A stretch of DNA of 50,774 nucleotides from Bacteroidales bacterium (lineage in GTDB: Bacteria; Bacteroidota; Bacteroidia; Bacteroidales; UBA932), in NCBI GenBank assembly GCA_017519865.1, contig JAFWRQ010000020.1:1-50774 (forward strand), read 5' to 3'. Numbering within the stretch: position 1 is the stretch's first letter; the number at the start of each line of letters is the position of its first letter. The position numbers and the translations under genes are program-made. The notes under the pieces are model-generated. The model was not told where the DNA came from. It searched no databases and saw only the letters and a program-made list of their open reading frames with translations. Below, piece after piece: positions 4,732 to 19,040 of this stretch.

Positions 4732-6084
4732 TCAGATGATTATGTCCGTCAGCCTTCCGACGAGCGCCTCGTCGTACGGGCGGACTATGCGAATGTAATT
4801 GCCGGTATATCCGGACATGTTGCCGTCCTTCTCCTTCGACTCGAACAGTACGCGCTCGCGTATGCCGCGGTTCTGCCTGACGAAGTCCTCGTGGAGCCTG
4901 GCGCAGAGTTCCTCAAGCGCCAGCACACGCTCGTGCTTGATCCGCTCCGTCACCTGGCCGGGCATCTTCGCGGCAGGCGTTCCTGGCCTGCGGGAGTAGG
5001 GGAATACGTGTATGAAGGCCGGGCGTATGCCGGCAATGAAGTCGTATGTTTCGCGGAAAAGTTCTTCCGTCTCGCCTGGCAGGCCCACCATCGTGTCGAT
5101 GCCGAAGAACACCTTCGGCTTGCCCGGCCCTTCCATCCGCGAGCGGATGTAGGCGATGCGGTCGGCGAAGAAAGCGGTGTCGTAGCGGCGCCCCATCGCT
5201 TTCAGCAGCGTGTCGCTGCCGGTCTGGAGCGGGATGTGGAAATGCGGCTGGAACTTTGTCCCGGACGCGATCCAGTCGACGATCTCCTCGGTGATGAGGT
5301 TCGGCTCGATCGAGGAGATGCGGTAGCGTTCGATGCCCTCGACCTTGACCAGTGCCTTAAGCAGGTCGAGGAACGACTCTCCGGTCGTGCGGCCGAAGTC
5401 GCCGGTATTCACGCCCGTCAGGACGATTTCCTTCACGCCTTCGGCGGCTATCGCCCGGGCATTGCGCACACACTCGCAGATTGGGATGTTGCGGCTCTCT
5501 CCGCGCGCATATGGTACAGTGCAGTACTTGCAGTAGTTGTTGCACCCGTCCTGCACCTTGAGGAAAGACCTCGTCCTCTCCCCGGTGCTGTACGCCCCGA
5601 AAACCTGATTAACAGCTTTGTCGGAGGGTACAGGCCCTGAAAACTGTGCCACCCTCGGCATCATAAGAGGGAGGGGCCCATCGCTTGCGATGGGAGGGGC
5701 CGAACGGAGTGAGGCGTTTTCAGGACCTGTACCCTCCGACAGGCGAGTGACAATCTCAAGGGTCTCGGGGACGACGAGGGCCTTTTCGTGGGCGCCGAAG
5801 ACGCGCACGACACCCTCGATGGCTTCAAACTCGGCTCTGTGCAGCTCGGCGCTGCAGCCGGCCACGACGATGCGCGCATCGGGATTGATGCGGTGCATCT
5901 TCCGGACAATATTGCGCGACTTGGCGTCGGACGTGCCGGTGACCGTACAGGTATTGACCAGGTAGACGTCGGCCTTCTCCTGCCACGGGACCACTTCCAG
6001 CCCCGCGGCCTTGAAGCCACGCTCGTAGGTAGAGGTCTCGGCGTAGTTGAGCTTGCAGCCGAGGGTGAGGAAGGCGATTACCAT
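4732..6084 (-). CDS. mtaB: tRNA ct6A/t6A37 methylthiotransferase MtaB
   Basis: Radical-SAM methylthiotransferase that makes ms2t6A37 in tRNAs reading ANN codons, 450 aa. The UPF0004 domain cysteines are C10, C46 and C77, the radical SAM cluster is CNNYCKYC (C181, C185, C188), and a TRAM-like tail follows. I chose the start at 6084 (MVIAFLTLGCKLNYAET); it overlaps the folB stop by 7 bases. Residues about 116-155, between the two domains, are encoded by a 119-bp palindromic element that keeps the reading frame and looks foreign to the family. TsaD, which makes the t6A substrate modification, is encoded nearby on the other strand. Confidence 0.93.
   Translation of the reverse strand: MVIAFLTLGCKLNYAETSTYERGFKAAGLEVVPWQEKADVYLVNTCTVTGTSDAKSRNIVRKMHRINPDARIVVAGCSAELHRAEFEAIEGVVRVFGAHEKALVVPETLEIVTRLSEGTGPENASLRSAPPIASDGPLPLMMPRVAQFSGPVPSDKAVNQVFGAYSTGERTRSFLKVQDGCNNYCKYCTVPYARGESRNIPICECVRNARAIAAEGVKEIVLTGVNTGDFGRTTGESFLDLLKALVKVEGIERYRISSIEPNLITEEIVDWIASGTKFQPHFHIPLQTGSDTLLKAMGRRYDTAFFADRIAYIRSRMEGPGKPKVFFGIDTMVGLPGETEELFRETYDFIAGIRPAFIHVFPYSRRPGTPAAKMPGQVTERIKHERVLALEELCARLHEDFVRQNRGIRERVLFESKEKDGNMSGYTGNYIRIVRPYDEALVGRLTDIII
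5621..5739. repeat. In-frame palindromic element inside mtaB
   Basis: Outer arms of 24 bases (5621-5644 and 5716-5739) are reverse complements with one mismatch. Inside is a perfect 8-bp hairpin, CCCATCGC-tt-GCGATGGG (5677-5694), flanked by an 8-base direct repeat GAGGGGCC (5671-5678 and 5694-5701). The element is translated within mtaB as about 40 residues with mirrored ends, SEGTGPEN and FSGPVPSD. It sits in the linker between the UPF0004 and radical SAM domains, where it could be tolerated. It resembles in concept the protein-inserted palindromic elements of Rickettsia. Confidence 0.82.
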
Positions 6085-6488
6085 TTGCGGAAAGCCATAA
6101 GTTGCTCGGCCTTGGATTCCTGAGGATAGGAGACCGTCATACGCGACCACTGACAGGCACCGCCGACAGGCGGGGTGGACTTTGACAGGCGCACCTTGAA
6201 GCGGATGAACTCGGGGAATCTCGCGGCAATGCTCTTGACAATCCTCCAGGCGACATTCTCCATCAAATTCGACGGCTTGTCCATTTCCTCGCGGATGACC
6301 TTGTAGACATCGCCGTAATCGACGGTGTCGTCAAGCCTGTCGCTCTTGGCCGCTTTCTTGTAATGGTATTCAGCCTTGAAATCCACGACGAAGAGATTGC
6401 CCTCCTCGCGCTCTTTCTCGAAACAGCCGTGGTAGGCGTGGAACTCCATCCCCGTGAGTTCGATTATGCCAATATCAGAAATACGCAT
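6078..6488 (-). CDS. folB: Dihydroneopterin aldolase
   Basis: Folate pathway enzyme that cleaves 7,8-dihydroneopterin to 6-hydroxymethyl-dihydropterin and glycolaldehyde; 136 aa from the preferred start at 6488 (MRISDIGIIELTGMEFHAYHG). An in-frame start 36 bases upstream would extend it into the preceding gene. Family marks are FHAYHGCFEKEREEGN, the DDTVDYGDVYK segment, and the LMENVA and KVRLSKSTPPVGG stretches. The C-terminus, about 20 residues past the usual end, overlaps the mtaB start. Second-to-last step before mtaB in a tightly packed operon. Confidence 0.92.
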   Translation of the reverse strand: MRISDIGIIELTGMEFHAYHGCFEKEREEGNLFVVDFKAEYHYKKAAKSDRLDDTVDYGDVYKVIREEMDKPSNLMENVAWRIVKSIAARFPEFIRFKVRLSKSTPPVGGACQWSRMTVSYPQESKAEQLMAFRKW

Positions 6489-18971: not shown

Positions 18972-19040
18972 CATCCTTCGGGAATTTCCCGAAGGATGTG
19001 GTGGTTTTGGGGGCATCCTTCGGGATTTTCCCGAAGGATG
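18972..19040. repeat. Two identical 12-bp palindromes in tandem
   Basis: CATCCTTCGGGA and its exact complement form a hairpin at 18972-18998 (3-base loop) and again at 19014-19040 (3-base loop), 42 bases apart, each followed by TGG. They fill the gap between two convergent genes. The arrangement could serve as a bidirectional transcription stop or be a small REP-like element. No U-run follows, so it is not a textbook terminator. Confidence 0.75.

Follow-up and report, generated by a model that had tools for sequence, protein, structure and literature searches.

A palindrome in frame within mtaB appears to be one copy of a dispersed insertion element with copy-specific arms in Bacteroidales

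The palindrome lying in frame within mtaB of this genome appears to belong to a palindromic insertion element that occurs at scattered sites and is frequent in the genus. In Bacteroidales it represents a new family of palindromic elements inserted in proteins, the distinctive features of which are arms specific to each copy and inversion of the core. We consider it likely that in-frame copies of this element persist, and that its arms exchange sequence and its core inverts via template switching. Rickettsia is the best-known source of protein-inserted palindromes. With a family that extends over a large gut genus, nature offers a whole series of in-frame insertions of a single element into housekeeping enzymes, in four frames and both orientations. 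If copies at one site are compared between species, short-range template switching may be traceable through mirrored changes of the arms and through inversions of the core, and these inversions rewrite a run of codons without a path of point mutations. The family also carries a warning for annotation, namely that linkers bearing such an element are no conserved domains.

The palindrome and its host gene

An inverted-repeat search of the window, that is, of the whole 50.8-kb stretch of DNA analysed, returned seven pairs of inverted repeats that are 16 nt or longer and lie no more than 250 bp apart, the mtaB palindrome being one of them. It spans positions 5619..5741 (123 nt, or 41 codons, in frame on the minus strand) and is built of two 26-nt arms, 96% complementary (one mismatch), with 71 nt between them. 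The initial annotation had described a 119-bp unit with 24-base arms and one mismatch; the palindrome and its mismatch were confirmed, whereas both sizes had to be corrected. The left arm, TGTCGGAGGGTACAGGCCCTGAAAAC (5619..5644), is copy-specific by comparison of own-arm with between-copy scores, and the right arm (5716..5741) is complementary to it except for the one mismatch. The conserved core, GTGCCACCCTCGGCATCATAAGAGGG (5646..5671, plus strand), contains a stem CCCTC/GAGGG, read from the sequence at 5652-5656/5667-5671, and is near-invariant in 135 copies, although this near-invariance is inflated, as the copies were chosen by patterns covering part of the core (most of the analysed copies were fetched by an exact core pattern and then filtered with a looser one). 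A perfect inner 8-bp hairpin, CCCATCGC-TT-GCGATGGG, can be read at 5677..5694 just as first described, and seven of its pairs are present in the RNAalifold consensus of seven copies from the same genome. The direct repeat noted earlier is there as well, but it is 10 bases long and not 8 (GGGAGGGGCC, at 5669..5678 on the plus strand and a second time at 5692-5701). Folding of 5619-5741 as single-stranded DNA gave -40.5 kcal/mol (z -7.8), which none of 200 shuffled sequences equalled. In a comparison of the window with Rfam, only SRP and tRNA reached the gathering score, and the element had no match.

The host ORF (4732..6150, minus strand, 472 aa including the insert) is mtaB, encoding the tRNA t6A37 methylthiotransferase (TIGR01579, E 3e-114). 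A domain search located UPF0004 at residues 26-116 and Radical_SAM at residues 198-372, and by arithmetic the insert occupies about residues 137-177, in agreement with the initial placement of the element in the linker between these two domains. It had also been proposed that the frame is kept over about 40 residues with mirrored ends, and the 41 codons indeed read as a peptide whose ends mirror each other (SEGTGPEN...FSGPVPSD). Elements of this kind are probably translated into protein; each in-gene copy would add about 35-45 residues to its host protein, with an effect that is presumably neutral or mildly harmful.

Copies in the genome, the genus and the order

The genome carrying the window (2.1 Mb, 37 contigs, 75% complete) contains further copies. 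BLASTN of the region against it gave 11 matches, namely the copy in the window, each of its two arms and eight places elsewhere, and the core common to these places is GTGCCACCCTCGGCA, followed by NNRTAAGAGGG in 8/9. The eight places are dnaX, aroK, uvrD, uvrA, an M16 peptidase gene, recR (partial), ribF (remnant) and one gap after a gpmI-like gene (so labelled from a reading of the ORF), and the host proteins are named by Pfam as uvrD, uvrA, dnaX, M16 peptidase, shikimate kinase, recR, ribF and mtaB. Full in-frame copies within genes number six (mtaB, dnaX, aroK, uvrD, uvrA and M16 peptidase). From seven copies of this genome we built a covariance model, R1, which finds nine places in it at E <=1e-6, with the ribF remnant as an extra one; the window copy, itself part of the training set, is matched at 5616-5744 (E 6.8e-32). 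A diverged R1 place that is absent from the BLASTN matches, C32:5887, holds a copy that, by our reading, probably continues an open frame whose start resembles a signal peptide.

Within the genus, R1 matched 122 of 151 genomes, the present one included, and 51 of the 63 good-quality ones; scoring was limited to 23 candidates per genome, and the copy numbers are therefore lower bounds. The idea that no other copy exists anywhere, which would have spoken against a mobile element, is thus contradicted by further copies in this and in related genomes. Many copies with the same arms had been anticipated, and of this the copies are borne out (nine R1 places, 122/151 genomes), while sameness of the arms is not, the core being common and the outer arms copy-specific. 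Across the order, R1 matched 5/247 genomes, again counting the present one, in a set apparently containing only two genomes of this genus; with a model trained on copies from one genome and with stricter filters, distant subfamilies may be missed in this count. The exact core pattern is present in at least 114 stretches of genome_contigs, and each of the 80 titles listed is that of a Bacteroidales, Bacteroidia or Rikenellaceae MAG, often with a ruminant host named and in one case with the name of a Cryptobacteroides species; going by this single name, the genus may be Cryptobacteroides. There were 0 exact core matches in viral_contigs, and a phage origin was rejected on this basis. The outer length of 135 copies has a median of 151 nt (range 100-217), their outer ends being soft. 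In isolate RGIG3675, copies of the one genome have similar G-rich arms, some of them in repeated flanks (L081, L068, L097, L099), which looks like a recent local amplification that carried the arms along.

Where copies reside was assessed for 120 of them with paired arms, genes being called by a codon-usage script with no homology involved: 53 are inside a predicted gene that reads through, four overlap a gene end and 63 are outside, many of the latter near gene ends. As most bacterial DNA is coding, yet only 53/120 copies are in genes, genes are not favoured. Both flanks have positive codon scores in 52 of the 53 in-gene copies, and whereas the flanks are mostly clearly positive, the elements themselves score between -0.24 and 0.07, as expected if this DNA did not evolve as coding sequence. 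Among the 53, four frames of the core are in use (20 MPRVA-like, 16 CATLG-like, 12 YxAEGGT-like and 5 CHPR-like); neither of the remaining two core frames occurs in these coding copies, one of the two being closed by the core's TAA. Its direction is against that of the gene in 32 copies and along it in 21, and because it occurs in genes in both orientations, excision or splicing at the RNA level seems unlikely. In-place inversion leaves the frame open in 34 of the 53, the window copy among them. As this is no more than in random segments of the same genes (547/863), flipping is not specially safe, and inversion-proof coding as a general property was rejected. The initial annotation had suggested a mobile mini-element tolerated in coding sequence; residence in genes is directly seen in these 53/120 copies, while mobility is what we infer from the dispersal and from empty sites.

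Such sites are found in genome G153, which is devoid of the element at four positions filled in G152 (taken to be one assembly with G081, since coordinates and scores coincide), namely in aroK (EALKEVLDNNRFIL), mtaB (ETLALLGVYPKEIITNEIFGAYS) and recR (QLVERLQRLKEYPDDMEVILAL) and between two convergent genes. A relative lacking the segment in mtaB, which had been sought as support for insertion, is therefore at hand. Filled sites exceed the G153 ones by 132 nt in recR, by 135 (G152), 105 (the present genome) and 126 nt (L112) in aroK, by 108 (G152) and 111 nt (the present genome) in mtaB and by 125 nt at the intergenic site, and all the coding differences are multiples of three. The same listing, in which several of the 24 rows are one site repeated via overlapping loci, holds differences of 96 and 102 for the window copy against other relatives (two rows), 168 for the ribF remnant (one site, two rows) and 198 for an unrelated gap (one row). 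At the empty sites, where flanks are about 84-97% identical, no direct target-site duplication was evident by eye. At another locus (L219, about 729-849), G152 carries the element, and G153 (L231) has there a palindrome with a similar outer arm and an unrelated interior. Genome G151 (coordinates as G130) has at C14:15061-15189 flanks 93-97% identical to both G152 and G153, and another of its regions is 70-76% identical to G152, hinting at transfer or contamination at the C14 locus.

Copy-specific arms, core orientation and template switching

The two arms of one copy fit each other better than those of other copies. The mean score of a left arm against its own right arm is 21.6, compared to 7.75 against the right arms of other copies (117 copies), and in 111/117 the own-arm score is above the between-copy 95th percentile; six copies score low on own-arm alignment, the truncated recR copy among them. 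Over the 135 copies, the information per base drops to almost nothing once the distance from the core exceeds about 28 nt, with pairing still extending outward in many of them, and the inner arm, nearer the core, shows a loose consensus.

Copies occupying the same site in different genomes, with both flanks common, form 41 pairs among 122 copies, and the core has the same orientation in 24 pairs and the opposite one in 17. These pairs share loci and are non-independent; by hand count they correspond to 21 sites, with both orientations seen at 12, and mtaB is one site with an inverted pair (the window copy and L149). The two arms of a copy are on average 0.92 identical; when arms are compared between species, the mean is 0.73 (range 0.33-1.0), the flanks being 82.4% identical. 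The pair L062/L111 illustrates both phenomena, as the arms match 24/24 within each copy, five positions differ between the species and all five are mirrored, while the core is inverted between flanks that are 89.8% identical. On the other hand, in 2/41 pairs (L134/L200 and L034/L216) the arms are identical between species, with the same internal mismatches kept in each copy, and in four further pairs the within-copy and between-species arm identities are equal, so homogenisation of the arms is not fast everywhere. Given the span of between-species identities (0.33-1.0), it may be that some pairs arose by independent insertion at a hot spot.

The likely course of events is that copies landing in tolerant spots of genes would persist if the frame is kept, and that after insertion the arms would keep exchanging sequence, most likely through switching of DNA polymerase between hairpin arms as templates. 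Such an exchange would keep the arms of a copy complementary during drift and now and then would invert the core; it may also transfer host flank to the arm on the other side. Template switching is reportedly, in one study, able to create and maintain RNA hairpins. According to PMC8604942, template switching between short inverted repeats homogenises arms and inverts spacers, also in coding DNA, which is the likeness to our case; the process described there is mutation at native repeats in yeast, whereas its substrate in our case would be an inserted element present at many places. A single process would thus explain mirrored arm change and core inversion, and we regard it as the probable cause of arm homogenisation and flips.

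A more far-reaching version, which we find rather doubtful, is that of a mobile palindrome whose arms are partly made by the target, the hairpin folding back during or after insertion and host flank being copied to the opposite arm (an inverted target duplication), with the core able to flip thereafter, so that sister species would come to encode unrelated peptides at one site. The clear case is the intergenic G152/G153 site. Its empty version contains the 13 nt of the outer left arm, CCTTTCTCCGAGG, a single time, and the filled version has them inverted at the right as well, one base shorter (12/13 nt), as expected if host flank were copied into the opposite arm. Weaker hints come from mtaB and from the recR remnant of the present genome. 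As a general rule, target-derived arms were rejected, since the empty sites of aroK and recR have no clear arm, mtaB gives a hint only, and the intergenic fit holds only for the outer part, the inner arm having its loose consensus.

A candidate transposase, other readings and known elements

The element may well be mobile in trans, possibly through a Y1 transposase. It could be a REP-like element moved by a Y1 (RAYT-type) enzyme, with the core hairpins as the recognition structure and the flips as part of single-strand transposition, a reading we hold to be possible rather than probable. The Y1 family PF01797 is present in 103/122 genomes with the element and in 7/29 without it (Fisher p 8e-10, relatedness being uncontrolled), as well as in 67/71 genomes with at least five copies, and the control family DDE_Tnp_1 leans the opposite way (39/122 vs 15/29, p 0.054). 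The Y1 protein of the present genome matches the RAYT model NF047646 (E 5.9e-9), although at 36 bits against a cut-off of 80, most Y1 matches are weak, and four element-rich genomes have no Y1 match. Moreover, R1 found no copy in 12 fetched Y1 loci (two of which, from G117 and G010, come from genomes with no R1 match) or in five further stretches of 4.0-5.4 kb around Y1 matches, and placement of the element beside Y1 genes was rejected for these 17 stretches.

Palindromes of other sequence do occur near some Y1 matches. Elsewhere in the window, two near-identical palindromes (CATCCTTCGGGAATTTCCCGAAGGATG and its copy, 18972-19040) directly follow an ORF, and the gene next to the genome's own RAYT-like gene begins with codons that contain palindromes like these (L287 3367-3435); these may be the transposase's own repeat family. 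In G065, two hairpins (L292, 1896-1963 and 2435-2510) flank a Y1 match, with identical inner parts (CCTTCGGAGA/TCTCCGAAGG) and differing outer arms, which is the theme of conserved core and copy-specific arms again.

Known REPs offer a partial parallel. According to PMC3733652, CGTC- and GTAG-tagged REPs with RAYT are hairpin repeats, some of them inside genes including uvrA, UvrD/REP helicase and other repair genes. Their units are 20-40 bp with terminal CGTC or GTAG, and the CGTC type, known in Bacteroidetes with no dedicated transposase, has an 8-9 bp stem starting with AT and a CCA tail (PMC3733652). By inspection, our element does not show this arrangement of CGTC, then an AT-starting stem, and a CCA tail and, at 123 nt, is at least three times longer; it also differs from a RAYT/REP system in that no copy flanks a Y1 gene in the 17 stretches examined.

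The closer likeness is to the Rickettsia palindromic elements (RPEs) of Ogata and co-workers, which according to PMC2229807 are palindromic units of 105-146 bp that lie between genes as well as in frame within conserved protein-coding ones, an RPE-carrying guanylate kinase being translated and active. Like them, as described there, the present element is palindromic, measures about 100-150 bp, is repeated many times and stands in frame in conserved genes that relatives have without the insert; it is set apart from these RPE descriptions by its other lineage, its copy-specific arms and the two core orientations at the same site. By analogy, it would work like RPEs, yet as a separate family. Bacterial MITEs (ERIC, Correia/NEMIS, YPAL) are, according to the same review, 100-200 bp long, give hairpin transcripts and are in some cases fused in frame to ORFs (PMC2229807). 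Our element, in contrast, has no common terminal inverted repeat, its arms differing from copy to copy. Among the papers listed in the literature searched, with subscription journals mostly outside its scope, we found no such protein-inserted palindromic family in Bacteroidales. Repeats in Porphyromonas are reportedly the subject of one study.

Apart from the Y1 transposase, it might be assumed that a structured hairpin of RNA or DNA (a terminator or regulator) is under selection, compensatory mutation keeping its arms paired and the inversions being separate insertions. Compensated change in 17 of 40 predicted pairs (seven copies) would fit, as would the 63/120 copies outside genes, many of them near gene ends. 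We nevertheless consider this unlikely, as the arms on average diverge more than the flanks (0.73 vs 0.82), unlike what slow compensatory change would give, and, within genes, the hairpin would need to be useful to unrelated hosts whichever way round it stands.

Gut bacteria carry invertons, and inverted repeats of about 25 nt around a spacer of about 70 nt, together with opposite orientations at the same sites between species, resemble what would be seen if a site-specific invertase flipped the core between inverted repeats and recoded proteins as phase variation. We find this very improbable, since the arms, i.e. the would-be recombination sites, are copy-specific and have no common recognition sequence, and the hosts in the present genome are housekeeping genes.

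That the segment is a conserved MtaB domain, or a lineage-specific insertion unrelated to mobile DNA, is almost certainly wrong: R1 does match the same linker in 8 of 30 fetched best-matching mtaB loci (and weakly and partially in a ninth), but a segment matched in 8/30 is no conserved part of MtaB, the mtaB of G153 is empty and the same DNA lies in unrelated genes and intergenic sites, so that the domain reading, which would have undone the initial annotation, is refuted. As to this linker itself, some relatives (within L148-L177) carry other insert-like peptides in it, e.g. CHAERSEAS, IPGQAGNDGS and PDRVSDYPAIPLEGVQGVK. These other types mark the linker as a tolerant spot, and their variety suggests that several repeat families may use it.
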